Shown here: piece by piece, positions 9,811 through 43,141 of the stretch
Layout: each line of letters opens with the position of its first letter
Numbering within the stretch: position 1 is the stretch's first letter
DNA from: an uncultured Bacilli bacterium
GTDB lineage: Bacteria > Bacillota_I > Bacilli_A > RF39 > UBA660
Assembly (NCBI GenBank): GCA_947625575.1
Contig: CANQOV010000005.1
Span: forward strand, 1 to 47,140
Direction of reading: 5' to 3'
DNA length: 47,140 nucleotides
Notes under the pieces: model-generated
What the model was told of the DNA's origin: nothing
Seen by the model: only the letters and a program-made list of their open reading frames with translations
The model's database searches: none
Made by a program: the position numbers and the translations under genes

Positions 9811-9832
9811 CCAAACTATTGTTGGTCATAAC
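9809..9832 (-). terminator. Intrinsic terminator overlapping the 3' end of cotJC
   Basis: Minus strand GACCAA-caatag-TTTGGTC followed by ATTTTTTATTT; the stem encodes the last codons of CotJC. Confidence 0.65.
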
Positions 9833-10190
9833 CTTTACTTACGTACTCATCATATAATTCTTTAAATCTATTAAAATGGACTACTTCTCTTTGTCTTAAC
9901 CATAATAATGGTTCAATTACATCTTTATCAGTTGCTAAATCTATTAAATTTTCATAAACTGCACGGGCTTTCTGTTCAGCAGCCATGTCTTCAGATAAGT
10001 CTGCGACTGGATCTCCAGTTGATGAAAAGTATGTTACTGTAAATGGTACTCCATTGGCATCAGTTGGATATTGTCCAATGCCATGTTCAGCATAAACTCC
10101 TTCTAGACCTGCTTCTTTTATTTCTTTGATAGTTGCATTTTGCATTAGTTGAAAAATCATGGTATTAATCATTTCGACATGGCCTAATTC
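9816..10190 (-). CDS. cotJC: 3' (C-terminal) part of prophage-interrupted cotJC (Mn-catalase-like spore coat protein)
   Basis: Frame open upstream of the ATG at 10172 back to the junction: DELGHVEMINTMIFQLMQNAT...GVYAEHGIGQYPTDANGVPFTVTYFSSTGDPVADLSEDMAAEQKARA...RQREVVHFNRFKE. Confidence 0.93.
   Translation of the reverse strand, partial: ELGHVEMINTMIFQLMQNATIKEIKEAGLEGVYAEHGIGQYPTDANGVPFTVTYFSSTGDPVADLSEDMAAEQKARAVYENLIDLATDKDVIEPLLWLRQREVVHFNRFKELYDEYVSKGYDQQ
10186..10190. other. Attachment-site core (junction with cotJC 3' part)
   Basis: AATTC identical to 43160-43164; homology to CotJC begins here. Confidence 0.85.
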
Positions 10191-11887: not shown

Positions 11888-11902
11888 TATTTATCACTCC
11901 TT

Positions 11903-12544
11903 TTAATTACTAATTTTTTTCCAATAAAATTTATTACAATAACTATCAAGCATTTGTGAATATGATAATGTTATAGTTGTATCACATCGAAACTCGTTTC
12001 CAGAGGCGATTGAGCCACCAGAAGTTTTACACACAACATCAATACTTCTAATTGCTCCAGTATTATCAATTTCAATCATTATAATACCGTTTCCACCATC
12101 TGCTGTTGCTATAAATCCTTTGTAACTTATACTTGGTTTAGAAAACCCTATTCTTTCCCAGTCAATTTTTCCATATTCAATAGTTGAGTCTGCAACAGTA
12201 ACAGATGGATTAATATGTATGGCAATATTTGCTGTGTGTCCAGCTAATGATGCCCAAACTTTAAATGTTGAACAATTACTCTTTGTTACATAGTCTTTAT
12301 CACTAGTAGTTATATATTGTGATTTGAACTCTTTATCAATTAATTCCCATGTTCCCCCATACTTTGATTGGGGATTTTCATTTGTTGATGTACATATAAT
12401 CATGTTGGGCTGTGTGATAAACTTATCTAATGTATTTCCACTTTTTGAACTTATATTGCAAGCTATATCTTTCCATGATATTTTGCTATTGTTTCCAAAT
12501 AAATTACTAAATATTTTCATTATTTTTCGTATCATAATTAACAT
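11903..12544 (-). CDS. Tail fibre/receptor-binding-type protein, paralog 3
   Basis: FSNLFGNNSKISWKDIA head and YGGTWELIDKEF motif shared with 12563 ORF. Confidence 0.65.
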   Translation of the reverse strand: MLIMIRKIMKIFSNLFGNNSKISWKDIACNISSKSGNTLDKFITQPNMIICTSTNENPQSKYGGTWELIDKEFKSQYITTSDKDYVTKSNCSTFKVWASLAGHTANIAIHINPSVTVADSTIEYGKIDWERIGFSKPSISYKGFIATADGGNGIIMIEIDNTGAIRSIDVVCKTSGGSIASGNEFRCDTTITLSYSQMLDSYCNKFYWKKISN

Positions 12545-12562
12545 CGTAAAAATTTTTTAAAT

Positions 12563-13183
12563 CTAATTGCTAACTTTTTTCCAGTAAAATTTGTCGCAAT
12601 ATTCATCTAACATATTATCCATTGCTGTTGCAAAATCATAATTAATATATGCATTAGCTCCTGAAGCTATAGATGTTGCACTACCTCTTCCAATAATATC
12701 AACACAGTTAGCAATACCAGTATTCCAAGCTATATTTACCATGATAATACCATTATTTACATCTGTTCCTGCAAGCAAATTTGTTGGGCTAAAATGCATC
12801 GTACTTATACCAAGTTTTTTAAAATCAATTGTAAATAATTCTGCGGTAGTGTCTGTTAATGCCTTGGCGGTAACAAAATTTATTCTTAATGAATTAGTAT
12901 GCCCTGTACGAGCATAATAGATTGTGCATGATGAAATATTACTTGTTATAGAAGAGCCAGTCAAATCAAAATGTCCTGCCTCATTTCTAAACTCTTTGTC
13001 TATTAATTCCCAAGTACCACCATATTTTAATTGTGGGTTTTCGTTTTTTGAAGTACAGATGATCATATCTGGTTGTGTGATATATTTATCTAATGTTTTA
13101 GATTTATTACTACCACCTTTACAAGCTATTTCTTCCCATGAGATTTTTGAGTTATTACCGAAAAAATTCTTAAAAACTTTCAC
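12563..13183 (-). CDS. Tail fibre/receptor-binding-type protein, paralog 2; probable GTG start at 13183
   Basis: KVFKNFFGNNSKISWEEIA head, YGGTWELIDKEF, KFYWKKVSN end; SD GAGGTG 6 nt before GTG. Confidence 0.65.
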   Translation of the reverse strand: MKVFKNFFGNNSKISWEEIACKGGSNKSKTLDKYITQPDMIICTSKNENPQLKYGGTWELIDKEFRNEAGHFDLTGSSITSNISSCTIYYARTGHTNSLRINFVTAKALTDTTAELFTIDFKKLGISTMHFSPTNLLAGTDVNNGIIMVNIAWNTGIANCVDIIGRGSATSIASGANAYINYDFATAMDNMLDEYCDKFYWKKVSN

Positions 13184-13209
13184 GATTAACACCTCGACTA
13201 GAGGTTATA

Positions 13210-13260
13210 TTAATTACTAATACAACCCCCCCCCCAAGTCTTAAATTTTTTGTCTTTCAT
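13210..13260 (-). CDS. Candidate 16-aa small ORF containing a G10 tract (MKDKKFKTWGGGCISN)
   Basis: Manual translation; same K-rich/[FW]GGGC pattern as 13721-13792. Confidence 0.4.
   Translation of the reverse strand: MKDKKFKTWGGGCISN
13226..13235. repeat. Homopolymer tract C10 (G10 on coding strand)
   Basis: Direct read; exceptional in this AT-rich sequence. Confidence 0.95.
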
Positions 13261-13286
13261 ATTATTAGTTATTAACTAATTGCACT

Positions 13287-13724
13287 TTATGTCTTTACTT
13301 TGCCTATGGCTAACCATGAAATCGTTGGCTCTACACCTCCAGTTGAAGCATTAACTGATTGTATTGTAAAACCTGTGGAAGTCATTGAAACTGGCTTATT
13401 TACTACATCTTTATAATTTTTGTTTGTCGTACTATTACTCATTTGCAAGAATACAAAGGCATTGCTTCCAAACTCTTCTTTATATGTTACTTGAGTATCT
13501 GTATTTGCTCCTGCACTTATTTTTATTGGCTCTCTTCCTAATGTAATTTGTAAATCGCCAATTTTGATAACAGATTGTGTATTACTTGCAACGTTTGTAA
13601 AATATGTTTCAATTTTAGGTATTAACTTATCAAGTGTTTTTGCTTTATTACTGGTGTCCTTACCTGCTATTTCCTCCCACGATATTTTGGAATTATTTCC
13701 AAATAAATTTTTGAACACTTTCAT
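13287..13724 (-). CDS. Tail fibre-type protein, paralog 1; probable start at 13724
   Basis: MKVFKNLFGNNSKISWEEIA head shared with the other two paralogs. Confidence 0.6.
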   Translation of the reverse strand: MKVFKNLFGNNSKISWEEIAGKDTSNKAKTLDKLIPKIETYFTNVASNTQSVIKIGDLQITLGREPIKISAGANTDTQVTYKEEFGSNAFVFLQMSNSTTNKNYKDVVNKPVSMTSTGFTIQSVNASTGGVEPTISWLAIGKVKT

Positions 13725-13792
13725 AGGCATACAGAGTGCAATTTAATTAAATAACTGCACCCCCCCCCGAACAAATGTTTGTTTTTACTCAT
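13721..13792 (-). CDS. Candidate 23-aa small ORF containing a G9 tract (MSKNKHLFGGGCSYLIKLHSVCL)
   Basis: ATG overlaps the upstream gene stop (ATGAGTAA); its TGA overlaps the downstream ATG (ATGA). Confidence 0.5.
   Translation of the reverse strand: MSKNKHLFGGGCSYLIKLHSVCL
13760..13768. repeat. Homopolymer tract C9 (G9 on coding strand)
   Basis: Direct read. Confidence 0.95.
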
Positions 13793-15398
13793 TACTATCT
13801 TCCTCACTTTCTATAAATTCTTCTATACTAGGGCTTTCAACAGTGTTTGTATCATCAAAAATGCTTGGTTGTTCTACCATGCTTTCATCTGCTGTCGCCT
13901 CTTCCCAGTCTTCACTTTCTGCAAAAAACGGAACTAGATATCTATTTGAATATACATCTCCCCAAAATTGAGTGCCTCCAAGATTTTCATCATACTCTCC
14001 ACCTAAAGCAACTTTATTTAGGTGTCCGTCAATTGCTGGAGAGCCAGCCATTAAGGTTATATTATCAAAAGTTATTTTATCTAGTGAATCTTCTATTTCT
14101 ACAATTATGTTATAAGATTTATCAAGTATAAAGCCATTGTCTGGACTATCTCCTTTAACATAATCATCAAAAGAAAATTTGTTTTGGCTTTCTGTTAAAA
14201 CAATTGCTGTTGTTCCATCTACAAAACTTGTATCAGTTACTTTTTTATATCTATATTTTACTTTTAATGTATTTTCAACTGCTCCAAAATTTCCTTGCCA
14301 AAATGTTCCAGAAAAGCTTAACTTTGTTTGTGTTGATGAGCCACCGTCTCTTAATGCTGTTGCATTTCCTTTACCTAGTTTTTGATAATTTATGAATTTA
14401 CTTACTTTTTTTGATAAACTTGTTGAATTGCCTCTTGTATCCACTGCATAAACATTTATTGTATCTCCAACCATGCCAATAATTGTATAAGGCAAGTTAG
14501 ATGGAGAAACCAAAGTATTATTAATTAAATAATGATCAATTGTAGCCCCTTTAGTTCCTGTTGCGGGTGTTACTGAGACTTTAATATTACTAAAGCCACT
14601 TACACTGGTTTTACTATCTTGTGTTAACTGTATTGTTTTGGTATTAATATCCTCATAATCAAAACTTGAAAATTGAGGGTTTGCATTTGTAATAATTGCT
14701 GTAGAGTTTAAAGAACTTGTTCCTAAATTTGTGGTATCACTTAAAGTCTCCAAATCCCATTTAATACTTAAACTATTACTATTAGGGGACAAGCCATATA
14801 TTGTATTTATCTGTTGTTGAGATAGCGATATACTATCTCCGTCAGAAACATCATTAAATTTTGCAATTTGTGTTTGCCCACTAGAGCCTACAAAATACAA
14901 TGTTAAATTGTTTATATATGAATCATCATGCCTAGTTATTGACAAAACTAGTGATTGTTCTAAATTTAATGAGTTATTATTTTGAAATTCATTTAATACA
15001 CTTATAAGTTTTGAAAGCGATAAAGAAGCTGTTCCAGACATTTTATCACTTGTGGCATCACTATAATAACAAGTAAATTTTACTTTTACACTTGTAGTTG
15101 TTGACGGAATATTTACTTCAAAAGTATCATTTGTGGTGTGAACACTTGTATTGTTCCATGAGTCATTTCTACCTTTTAGGGTTAATCTTTTTGTTTGGGT
15201 TGTTATTCCAGTACCACTTATTTCAACTTCTCCATACAAATATATACCTGTTCCGACATAACCAGATGAAGTAACTAAATTTGTTTTTGCTGTTAATTTG
15301 AAGTTTGTTTTAGTGCTAGTTCTTGATGATTCTGTTATTGTTAATACACTTTTTGTTGTTGTTCCTGAAATCATCTTTTGTAAAGTTATTGTTGCCAT
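13785..15398 (-). CDS. Phage minor structural / baseplate-type protein
   Basis: Large beta-rich protein between the tail endopeptidase-like protein and the fibre genes. Confidence 0.65.
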   Translation of the reverse strand: MATITLQKMISGTTTKSVLTITESSRTSTKTNFKLTAKTNLVTSSGYVGTGIYLYGEVEISGTGITTQTKRLTLKGRNDSWNNTSVHTTNDTFEVNIPSTTTSVKVKFTCYYSDATSDKMSGTASLSLSKLISVLNEFQNNNSLNLEQSLVLSITRHDDSYINNLTLYFVGSSGQTQIAKFNDVSDGDSISLSQQQINTIYGLSPNSNSLSIKWDLETLSDTTNLGTSSLNSTAIITNANPQFSSFDYEDINTKTIQLTQDSKTSVSGFSNIKVSVTPATGTKGATIDHYLINNTLVSPSNLPYTIIGMVGDTINVYAVDTRGNSTSLSKKVSKFINYQKLGKGNATALRDGGSSTQTKLSFSGTFWQGNFGAVENTLKVKYRYKKVTDTSFVDGTTAIVLTESQNKFSFDDYVKGDSPDNGFILDKSYNIIVEIEDSLDKITFDNITLMAGSPAIDGHLNKVALGGEYDENLGGTQFWGDVYSNRYLVPFFAESEDWEEATADESMVEQPSIFDDTNTVESPSIEEFIESEEDSNE

Positions 15399-17578
15399 TA
15401 TTCTTTACCTCCGAAAGTTATCCATATATGATCTTTCTTAATTTCTTTTACAAACATACCCACTATATTAGCTTCTTCATGCACTGTTAATGTTTTTGTA
15501 TCTGTTCCTTGGTCTGTATTTCTATTAACAACTTCATCAGTGGTTAGGTTGATAGTTCTTTGTCCGTCTGCGTCAATTCTTGTTTTAGCATTTATATTAG
15601 AGTTGATTACTTCTATTCCTTTAGAAATATTTACAGTAGATGTAGTTGTTTCATTTTGGTTTTGCGAATACACAGCTTTAGTCTCGCCCGCATTAACCAT
15701 TAATTCATAAACAGCATATCCAGAGTTTGTATCGCAAGAAAACTTTACTTCAATATTTTTGGCTGTTACAGTTATTGGCAATTCAAACAATGTTTCATCT
15801 GCTGTCTGTTCTAAATCATATACTTTGTTATTTATAGTAACTGTGGCTATGGCTAAACTAATCAATCTTTTATATTTAAATGAAATATAGTAATTTCCGT
15901 TTAACACTTCTTGGTTTTGCATACAAGAGCCATTTTTTAACAATATACACGTTCTTGTTGCAGAGTTTTCTTCTGTTCCTCTATCCAATGTTCCTTGCCA
16001 AAATTCAAATCCGTCTCCCTCTGCAAATGCAAGCGATGTATTTCTAAAGATATTTAAACCACCAGTTGTTGAATAAATATTAGTTAAACCACTTTTGGCA
16101 TTTTCTATCAACTCATTTATTTGCTCTTTACCATAAAAATCATCTGTTATTTGAGATGTTATTAAATTAATATTTTGCTGATTGATTTCAATCGAATTAT
16201 TTATACCTGATAATTCATCAAGTAGCCCTTGTATGCGTTCTACTGACATAGTACCTGTAGTAATAAAATTTGCTACTATTTTTCCATCACTAGTTATGGC
16301 AGTTTCATAAGGACCATTTATACCATTTTTAGAAAAACCTAAACCTGCAATGTTCCATCTCCAAACATTTTTTGCTTGTTGAGGATCCTCATTATCAACG
16401 ATAAATAATTCTTCCCTAGTTTTTATAACATAGCCACCAAGAGCAGAAGTTAAAAGTCTTGAAGCATTGTTTTGAGCTTCAATTAAAATTGATTCTGGAT
16501 TAATATCTAAATTTTCCATTTGTTTTTGAATCATATTATTTTGTTCGTTTACTAATGATGCTTTCTCGCTTCCTAATTCAAAATTAACTATTTTTTCTTT
16601 CAAGACATCATAAATAATTTTTATAACTCTTGTTTTTATTTCCATGCCCCAAACTTTTGTTGTAATTGTATCTCCTAAATTAATGCTTTCAAGGTGTTGA
16701 AAGTTTTGATATTCAATTGTTTTAGATAAATCTTGATAATCAATTTTAATATTTACAGAAGGTAAATCTGCTCCATTTTTATATAGATCATTTACATAAT
16801 TTCTCATAATTTCATATGCTTGTTCTTCTGGTGTTTCTTCATCAATTGATACATCAACTTCAACTGTTTTTATTAATGGGAAAGGATAATTGTTAATAAG
16901 TGGACTATCAATAAATTTTTCTGGTAGCATTAATTCATTATTGCCGATTGGCATTATTCTTGTAGCTGTTTCTGTTATATCTGTTAGCATTTCAATGCTT
17001 TTTAAATTTTTCCCAAATTCTACAAAAACCCCATTATCATTACCTATTTGATTTTTATAATCTATTGTAAAATTATCTAAATCTATCTCTCCACCCCAGA
17101 CATTTATTAATGAATTGTCCGCAGTTAAAATCGCTTCTATAGGATTTTTTCTTACGTAATAAGCTGTATTTTCAGAAATAACATTACCTGTTACCTCAAA
17201 AGAATTTTCGTATGAAGTATGACTTAAAATATATCTTAAAGCATTTGTACCAGATTGATTAGTTGGTCTAACATCTAATAAAAAATTGTTATACAAATCA
17301 AAAAATATATGCAACGCATATATTTTTATAGTCTTATTTTTAGTAATTTGAAATATTCTAAATAGCTGATATTTCCCATTGTATTTACATTTTATAATAT
17401 TTAATTTTTCTAAATATTCACTGTTTAATCCATCAAGAGCATATTCAAATTCTAATTTATATGTTCCATTTAGTTCTCTAGTAATTTGAGGATTAGTTTT
17501 AAAATCTTTAAGATATCCTAGACCGTTTGTATCAAAACTTTTAAGTTTTAATTCAGTAAATTTATCATATATTAACAT
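15398..17578 (-). CDS. Prophage tail protein (tail endopeptidase / gp18-like)
   Basis: Position after Dit; TRELNGTYKLEFEYALDG...and long C-terminal fibre region. Confidence 0.75.
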   Translation of the reverse strand: MLIYDKFTELKLKSFDTNGLGYLKDFKTNPQITRELNGTYKLEFEYALDGLNSEYLEKLNIIKCKYNGKYQLFRIFQITKNKTIKIYALHIFFDLYNNFLLDVRPTNQSGTNALRYILSHTSYENSFEVTGNVISENTAYYVRKNPIEAILTADNSLINVWGGEIDLDNFTIDYKNQIGNDNGVFVEFGKNLKSIEMLTDITETATRIMPIGNNELMLPEKFIDSPLINNYPFPLIKTVEVDVSIDEETPEEQAYEIMRNYVNDLYKNGADLPSVNIKIDYQDLSKTIEYQNFQHLESINLGDTITTKVWGMEIKTRVIKIIYDVLKEKIVNFELGSEKASLVNEQNNMIQKQMENLDINPESILIEAQNNASRLLTSALGGYVIKTREELFIVDNEDPQQAKNVWRWNIAGLGFSKNGINGPYETAITSDGKIVANFITTGTMSVERIQGLLDELSGINNSIEINQQNINLITSQITDDFYGKEQINELIENAKSGLTNIYSTTGGLNIFRNTSLAFAEGDGFEFWQGTLDRGTEENSATRTCILLKNGSCMQNQEVLNGNYYISFKYKRLISLAIATVTINNKVYDLEQTADETLFELPITVTAKNIEVKFSCDTNSGYAVYELMVNAGETKAVYSQNQNETTTSTVNISKGIEVINSNINAKTRIDADGQRTINLTTDEVVNRNTDQGTDTKTLTVHEEANIVGMFVKEIKKDHIWITFGGKE

Positions 17579-41557: not shown

Positions 41558-43141
41558 GTGATAACTATGCAAGAAAATAATTATAAATATGAAAATATCA
41601 AAGATTATGATGCTTATATAAGAAAAAGTAGAAAAGATGATGAATACAGTAAAGATGAAAGTCTAGAAAAGACACTTCAAAGACATGAAAAAATCTTACA
41701 AGATTTTGCTATGAGTTTGTTTGGGCAAAGGATACCTGAAGAAAATATTTTTAAAGAAGTAGTTTCAGGCGACACAATTGCAGACAGACCACAAATGCAA
41801 GCTTTACTTGAGCGTGTTCAATCAGGCACGAGAAAGGGTGTTTTTGTGGTCGAAATTGAACGTTTGGCACGTGGTAATACAATTGACCAAGGTATAATTG
41901 CACAAGCCTTTAAATTGACTGATACTAAAATATTAACACCGCAAAAAATATTTGATTTAGAAAATGAATTTGATTCTTCATTTTTCGAGGATGGTTTATA
42001 TCAAGCAAGGAAATATTTAATGTATACAAAAAAGATTTTGAAACGTGGTCGTGAACAAAGTGTTAAAGAAGGTAAATTTATTGCTTCAACAACACCGTTT
42101 GGTTATAATAAAGAAAAATTAAAAAATGAAAAAGGCTTTAAATTAGTGATAAACGAAGAAGAGGCTAAAACAGTTAAAATAATTTTTGATTTATGTTGCG
42201 AAAACAAAGGTTGTCAAGAAATTGCTAATTATTTAAATAATATTAGTGCTAAAGCAAAAAAGAATAATATATGGACACCTGCAATGATTAGAAATATATT
42301 AAAAAATATTGTTTATAAAGGTTATATATCATATAATAAGCGAAAAACTGAAACTAAATTTGTTGATGGGGTTGTAGTTAAATATAGACCTCTTCACAAA
42401 GTTTTTTGGCAAATAAAAGGATTACATGATTCGATAATTAGTGAAGATCAATTTGACTATGCTCAAAAAATGTTAGTTAATCGTTCTATCAAAACTGTTC
42501 CTGATAATAAAGTTATGAGGAATCCTCTTTCTGGACTGGTTAAATGTTATTTTTGTGGCAGAAACATGGTAAGAAGACCATATGATAATGCTAGGCAAGA
42601 AACTTTAATGTGTCCTCTTTCAAAATGTAAAAATGTTGCTTCTAATTTAAATATTGTTGAAGACAAAATTTTAAGCACATTAAAAAATGAACTTGACTCT
42701 TACAAAAAATATCTTATAGACTATAAAGTTATTGAAAAAGAAACATTAGAAAAAAAAAATATAGTTAAAAATTTAGAAAGTGAAATAAATAAATTAAATA
42801 AGCAACTTGATAAAATTTGTGAATTGTTTGAGACAGGTGTTTACGAATATAGTCTTTTTAGTGATCGTAAAAACCAAATAAATGATAAAATAAAAAGTAA
42901 AGAAAAACAAATTAAAGGCATAGAAGATGAATTAAAAAATGATAAAATTGTTAAATATAAAGAGGCTATTCCAAAAATAGAAAAAGTTTTAGATTTGTAT
43001 AATAAGACGGATTCAGTCGAAAACAAAAACAAATTATTGCATACAGTTATTGAAAAAGTAATTTATAAAAAGACATCTAGTGGTCGCTGGGACAAAGAAG
43101 CAAGATACAATTTTTCTTTAGAATTATACCTAAAATTTTAG
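41558..43141 (+). CDS. Large serine recombinase (integrase)
   Basis: DAYIRKSRKD catalytic Ser, VEIERLARG, recombinase domain, CYFCGRNM..MCPLSKC zinc ribbon, C-terminal coiled coil. Confidence 0.95.
   Translation: MITMQENNYKYENIKDYDAYIRKSRKDDEYSKDESLEKTLQRHEKILQDFAMSLFGQRIPEENIFKEVVSGDTIADRPQMQALLERVQSGTRKGVFVVEIERLARGNTIDQGIIAQAFKLTDTKILTPQKIFDLENEFDSSFFEDGLYQARKYLMYTKKILKRGREQSVKEGKFIASTTPFGYNKEKLKNEKGFKLVINEEEAKTVKIIFDLCCENKGCQEIANYLNNISAKAKKNNIWTPAMIRNILKNIVYKGYISYNKRKTETKFVDGVVVKYRPLHKVFWQIKGLHDSIISEDQFDYAQKMLVNRSIKTVPDNKVMRNPLSGLVKCYFCGRNMVRRPYDNARQETLMCPLSKCKNVASNLNIVEDKILSTLKNELDSYKKYLIDYKVIEKETLEKKNIVKNLESEINKLNKQLDKICELFETGVYEYSLFSDRKNQINDKIKSKEKQIKGIEDELKNDKIVKYKEAIPKIEKVLDLYNKTDSVENKNKLLHTVIEKVIYKKTSSGRWDKEARYNFSLELYLKF

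Follow-up and report, generated by a model that had tools for sequence, protein, structure and literature searches.

Why does a prophage carry a run of nine guanines inside a tiny open reading frame (ORF) wedged between two tail genes, and could the length of that run decide whether the downstream gene is expressed? The locus lies in a 47,140-nucleotide stretch of DNA from an uncultured Bacilli bacterium (the window below), within a prophage that encodes a serine recombinase, an S24-type repressor, a DnaB-type helicase, terminase, portal and capsid. A preliminary description had put it forward as a candidate switch for a tail or receptor-binding gene. This proposal gains support from a second tract, from two further prophages, from the receptor-binding type of the genes concerned and from the poly-G tracts of the host, with slippage and the ON and OFF states themselves remaining unmeasured. 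We consider slipped-strand phase variation of receptor-binding cassettes via leader ORFs, turned ON by translational coupling, to be the probable answer; the tracts, the leader frames, the predicted folds, their recurrence, a fold resembling that of receptor-binding proteins (RBPs) and the host poly-G context are documented in what follows.

Around the first run the minus strand reads ...GATAGTAATGAGTAAAAACAAACATTTGTTC-G9-TGCAGTTATTTAATTAAATTGCACTCTGTATGCCTATGAAAGTG, and the elements of the locus are arranged as follows:

13785 to 15398, minus strand: 537-aa tail gene (DUF859 / phrog_372), which precedes the switch
13721 to 13792, minus strand: leader ORF 1, MSKNKHLFGGGCSYLIKLHSVCL, 23 codons, with the SD GAGGA
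13760 to 13768, minus strand: G9 tract 1, in the coupling phase, predicted ON
13733 to 13763, minus strand: predicted hairpin 1, the 3' Gs of tract 1 forming its 5' arm, with a stem of the GGGUGCAGUU / AAUUGCACUC type
13287 to 13730, minus strand: gene A, tail cassette of 147 aa without an SD, start ATG 13730 or 13724

The G9 had been placed in a tiny ORF joined to both neighbouring tail genes, and it is indeed found at 13768–13760 within a 23-codon leader that begins before the 537-aa gene has ended and runs into the gene A ATG. With nine Gs the leader encodes 23 aa and its TGA overlaps the gene A start, as had been claimed, and reaches 4 nt beyond the start of ATG 13724. With G8 the product would shrink to 14 aa, the stop ending 22 nt upstream of the gene A ATG, and with G10 to 16 aa with the stop ending 18 nt upstream. 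The early stop foreseen for both altered lengths thus stands, while its distance has to be corrected from about 35 nt to 18–22 nt. The statement that gene A lacks a clear SD is borne out by its anti-SD pairing of +0.8/+1.3 kcal/mol, the median of 29 other genes of the window being −9.0; the SD of leader 1 is normal to strong (−8.1 kcal/mol). Runs of eight Gs are expected 0.05 times in the window, and five overlapping matches were observed, in two tracts, a count reached by none of 100 shuffles.

The second tract, which the preliminary description did not mention, is a G10 in a leader of its own before gene B, about 530 nt beyond tract 1:

13210 to 13260, minus strand: leader ORF 2 as assembled, MKDKKFKTWGGGCISN, without an SD
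13226 to 13235, minus strand: G10 tract 2, in a non-coupling phase, predicted OFF
13200 to 13230, minus strand: predicted hairpin 2 of 13 bp, with tract 2 as its 5' arm, competing for ACCUC with the SD hairpin
13191 to 13205, minus strand: alternative small hairpin ACCTC/GAGGT, a palindrome that covers the gene B SD
12563 to 13192, minus strand: gene B, tail cassette, likely start GTG 13183, C-terminal part with a modelled RBP-head-like fold
11903 to 12544, minus strand: gene C, tail cassette and paralogue of gene B, without a G tract and without an SD

As assembled, leader 2 stops 26 nt short of the gene B start, and with G11 it would stop 33 nt short of it; with G9 it would reach approximately position 13170, which is 14 nt past the gene B GTG. 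This leader lacks an SD, and it may depend on the translation of gene A. The SD of gene B, GAGGTG, is able to pair with the ACCTC immediately upstream.

The array formed by these cassettes sits between the tail genes and the holin/endolysin genes, a position of the RBP type. An anchor-like N-terminus, MK(V/I)F(K/S)N(L/F)FGNNSKISW, is common to the three genes A, B and C, and it is here that gene B is paralogous to gene A; behind it, gene A is unlike B and C. The evidence that gene A encodes an RBP consists of a family match only, to the tail-fibre family phrog_14469 (E 8e-6); a match to Gp53-like_C is weak, and the structure model is too poor for use. The model of gene B (mean pLDDT 81) resembles the TP901-1 receptor-binding protein, structures of which are its first PDB matches, with a Foldseek probability of 1.0 but an E value of about 1e-3. 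Annotated phage records contained no DNA match to 11900–15400 and no protein match to gene B. A fragment of a Mn-catalase gene lies at 9816–10172, beside the lysis end of the prophage, and a serine recombinase is encoded close to the opposite end, at 41558–43141; a Mn-catalase gene may have been the integration site of the prophage.

Homologs of the 537-aa tail gene flag the equivalent position in other prophages. When 341 genomes of the family were searched with the 537-aa protein, homologs turned up in 19 other genomes, and a scan of genome contigs yielded locus L076, in the uncultured Bacilli MAG BRZ_FH__bin48. There, a tail gene of 489 aa from the same PHROG comes first, then a leader that starts with GTG, has a strong SD and crosses G11, and finally tandem tail genes. 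The leader with G11 overlaps the next start by 11 nt, and with G10 and G12 it would stop 21 and 71 nt upstream. One of the 19 genomes with a homolog, G803 of another genus, carries locus L178, where a leader with a strong SD crosses G9. Three tandem cassettes follow, and the leader stop ends 8 nt beyond the start of the first; in the remaining phases it would lie 38 and 66 nt upstream. These cassettes carry a different common N-terminus, NVLK(D/N)K(L/A)G(N/E)ILNPxIPRYE. Both loci belong to genera other than that of the window prophage. The window genome is of the same family as G073 (a MAG labelled Erysipelotrichaceae) and G664, and the tract and cassette coordinates of G664 equal those of the L076 genome. 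No tract was seen at the remaining loci of 537-aa homologs or in the related arrays of G073 and G759, although several of all these contigs end nearby. Tract-free homologs also occur in tract-carrying hosts (G082, G205 and G022), so that a strict limitation of tract-bearing phages to poly-G hosts had to be rejected.

Two observations on related arrays stand apart. Genome G759, which has no G8 run at all, carries one prophage tail region twice on a single contig (L097 and L098), the copies being separated by about 28.7 kb, with the cassette array present and the G tract absent; the duplication could reflect a double lysogen or an assembly artefact. On a viral contig (L004, 6043–6051) a G9 lies inside a tail gene, at the GGTWELIDKEF motif common to genes B and C, and could be an in-gene switch or a coincidence.

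All four leader loci follow one rule: a single phase runs over the gene start, and the remaining two stop upstream of it. The coupling-phase stop ends 4 (gene A), 14 (gene B), 11 (L076) and 8 (L178) nt past the start. When the tract-to-start spacers were shuffled with dinucleotides kept, this layout arose with probabilities of 0.13, 0.34, 0.21 and 0.17 at the four loci, and the joint probability is about 0.0016. As the criterion was written after the loci had been seen, the statistic is post hoc and supportive rather than decisive. At each of the four loci the first predicted hairpin has the tract as its 5' arm, and the tract-to-start RNA is predicted to be more stable than spacer-shuffled controls in which the tract was kept (z −2.9, −4.1, −3.8 and −6.5). 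The four tracts, which are different loci and not copies of one phage tract, count 9, 10, 11 and 9 Gs. Leader and tail gene cannot be fused in frame, since the phase that would join them ends upstream of the gene at each of the four loci. An Rfam search returned only a tRNA and no known RNA element, and no intrinsic (U-run) terminator was found on the coding strand of the window or at L076.

From these features the following course of events may be proposed. Hypermutable G tracts would be placed in short leader ORFs upstream of tandem cassettes, and not within the tail genes themselves. Replication slippage would alter the number of Gs and with it the phase of the ribosomes as they come off the tract. 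One phase out of three would carry the ribosome through the hairpin formed by the tract to a stop located a few nucleotides beyond the tail gene start; this would melt the structure and hand the ribosome over to the downstream gene, which is the predicted ON phase by translational coupling. The other two phases would stop upstream and leave the gene OFF or low. The assembled state would accordingly correspond to gene A being ON (G9) and gene B being OFF (G10). Slippage in this phage, the direction and strength of the coupling, and any effect on host range are inferred. OFF may be leaky rather than absolute, since the OFF stops in the window lie only 18–33 nt upstream and reinitiation is possible. 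Also to be weighed against this course of events are the missing SD of leader 2 and the lack of a tract at most of the homologous tail loci. Most cassette genes in four phages are SD-poor, which is the pattern expected if they are coupled. Gene B and the tail genes of L076 and L178 have SDs of their own, near predicted structure, so strict coupling is not required there, and unmasking of the SD may matter more at these genes.

Poly-G tracts are also widespread in the host. Its genome (1.15 Mb, with 26% GC over the 127 kb sampled) contains 34 distinct tracts of at least eight Gs, two of them within this prophage, and most lie at promoters or at the 5' ends of surface-type genes. A perfect TTGACA precedes eighteen of them, and in most of these cases the tract is in turn followed by a hexamer resembling TATAAT. 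That such tracts change length in this lineage is supported by direct evidence from copies within one genome. Ten near-identical in-gene elements read ATGGAAAATAAAAAA or ATGAAAGATAAAAAA, then AGTCT-Gn-CAACTAGAAAAA; the tract stands at the 5' end of the gene and opens a long membrane-anchored protein only at G9. The tract is G9 in two copies, G10 in seven and G11 in one, and the copies are mostly OFF as assembled:

G000, L045–L047, L051, L054–L057 and L060: ten-copy in-gene element

In the same genome, poly-G separates TTGACA from TATAAT-like hexamers at L050, L041, L043, L044, L052 and L053, as well as at L058, L059, L061 and L062, and several adjacent genes on contig C25 (L050) have promoter-spacer poly-G switches. 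Host leaders at L048 (1683) and L049 (1614) cross G10/G11 before surface-type genes without a coupling overlap; with G9 they would terminate within a small hairpin that precedes the gene SD, and they are possibly translational attenuators.

Nine-G tracts were present in 63 of the 118 sampled genomes of the family, and most of the tracts inspected in other genera lie at promoters or in short leaders before surface-type proteins. The toolkit of the host family also includes promoter-spacer, in-gene and leader-attenuator versions of poly-G. The L076 host has four leader ORFs, MNRYLTKLTVCKLGGG and variants of it, that run across G9/G10 before an intrinsic terminator and surface-type genes:

L082 1787, L083 1855, L084 1767 (minus strand) and L085 1935: leader ORFs with terminator in the L076 host

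Exactly one phase reaches the terminator arm at each of them, and in L085 shifted flanks make G10, not G9, that phase. They look like a poly-G version of the Streptococcus gallolyticus pil1 attenuator. Loss of mismatch repair was discarded as a cause of poly-G, mutS1 being intact in all four genomes tested, with and without phage tracts.

The same observations can be read in other ways. Phase variation could be genuine and yet be read out differently: translation of the leader could pick between alternative hairpins in an RNA switch of the attenuation type, in which exposure of the SD, and not the hand-over of ribosomes, decides. At leader 2 the choice would lie between pairing of the tract with ACCUC and pairing of ACCUC with the SD, and the ON phase of gene B could then be an early-stopping one. 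The good SDs near hairpins at gene B, L076 and L178 fit such a scheme, and leader-terminator switches of similar logic occur in the L076 host and were demonstrated experimentally in S. gallolyticus (PMC3894217). Gene A, however, has no SD to expose, one phase crosses the start codon at four of four loci, and a U-run terminator is absent from the coding strand in the window and from L076; we regard attenuation as the governing principle here as unlikely, without dismissing it. Could the tracts instead lie in promoter spacers, their length tuning the transcription of the tail genes? This is the commonest use of poly-G in the host genome, but the phage tracts reach only 8, 8 and 6 of 12 hexamer matches, like coding-type tracts, whereas 17 of the 18 host TTGACA tracts score 10–12. 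These hexamer scores exclude the promoter-spacer reading for the phage tracts as far as we can judge, and we leave it only a very slim chance.

Homopolymer runs are potentially slippery for RNA polymerase and for the ribosome. Slippage at either level could generate a fixed mixture of leader phases that sets a low dose of the tail gene, with no heritable switch involved. Against this speak the host copies, which vary in G number at the DNA level, and the differing lengths of the four phage tracts, and we judge a fixed mixture very unlikely. It could also be argued that leaders and tracts are merely recombination modules that swap tail cassettes without controlling expression, given that the cassettes are alike at their N-termini and unlike behind them, with leaders at the cassette borders. 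Yet the leaders share little sequence beyond the tract when compared by eye, and most cassettes, including gene C, have no tract, which leaves this explanation with next to no credence.

Slipped-strand variation of the cassettes through coupled leader ORFs hence remains the reading that we prefer, and the leader-switch model is directly testable. A broader proposal, which we put forward tentatively and with slightly more doubt than conviction, is that poly-G leader-ORF valves with tract-formed hairpins, arranged serially along arrays of RBP cassettes, represent a recurrent phage device in the style of the host toolkit, giving a population with a stochastic mixture of RBPs. If true, this would be a second, unrelated case of a phage slippage switch, found in temperate Bacilli phages and with the switch moved into a leader ORF. 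It would further suggest that phages of phase-varying hosts repeatedly take up the switching habit of their host to vary receptor binding.

An article by Sorensen et al. (2021, Cell Rep 35:109214) reportedly describes Campylobacter Fletchervirus phages with hypermutable polyG tracts. In later papers, such tracts in Fletchervirus phages are tied to receptor-binding proteins (PMC11868660, PMC11959909, PMC10877375), and a 2025 review treats phage slippage switches as exceptional and cites only these phages. Both systems have phage-borne poly-G linked to RBPs and a host with poly-G phase variation of its own. By contrast, the phages described here are temperate prophages of Bacilli with tandem cassettes, and their tract lies in a separate leader ORF unable to fuse in frame with the tail gene; the tract position in Fletchervirus was not compared. 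Our literature search found no paper joining phage, leader ORF and coupling, and none pairing 'phase variation' with 'RF39', both weak negatives because most subscription papers were outside the search.

The closest parallel to the leader logic is the pil1/pil3 switch of S. gallolyticus (Danne et al. 2014, PMC3894217), in which a leader peptide with GCAGA repeats works together with a transcription terminator. There, as here, a change in repeat number within a leader ORF shifts the ribosome stop relative to a downstream RNA structure; the present phages differ in using poly-G, in having no terminator that we could find and in a long phase that runs into the start codon of the following gene. 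The leaders L082–L085 of the L076 host are nearer to pil1 than the phage leaders are. With respect to the products, solved RBP structures of the TP901-1 and Listeria phage PSA type are among the best PDB matches of the gene B model. The present array differs from these in its common short N-terminal motif and its switch leaders, and the sequences are too dissimilar to assign a family. Poly-G phase variation of RBPs and repeat switches in leader peptides are thus both known, and it is their combination that appears to be new.
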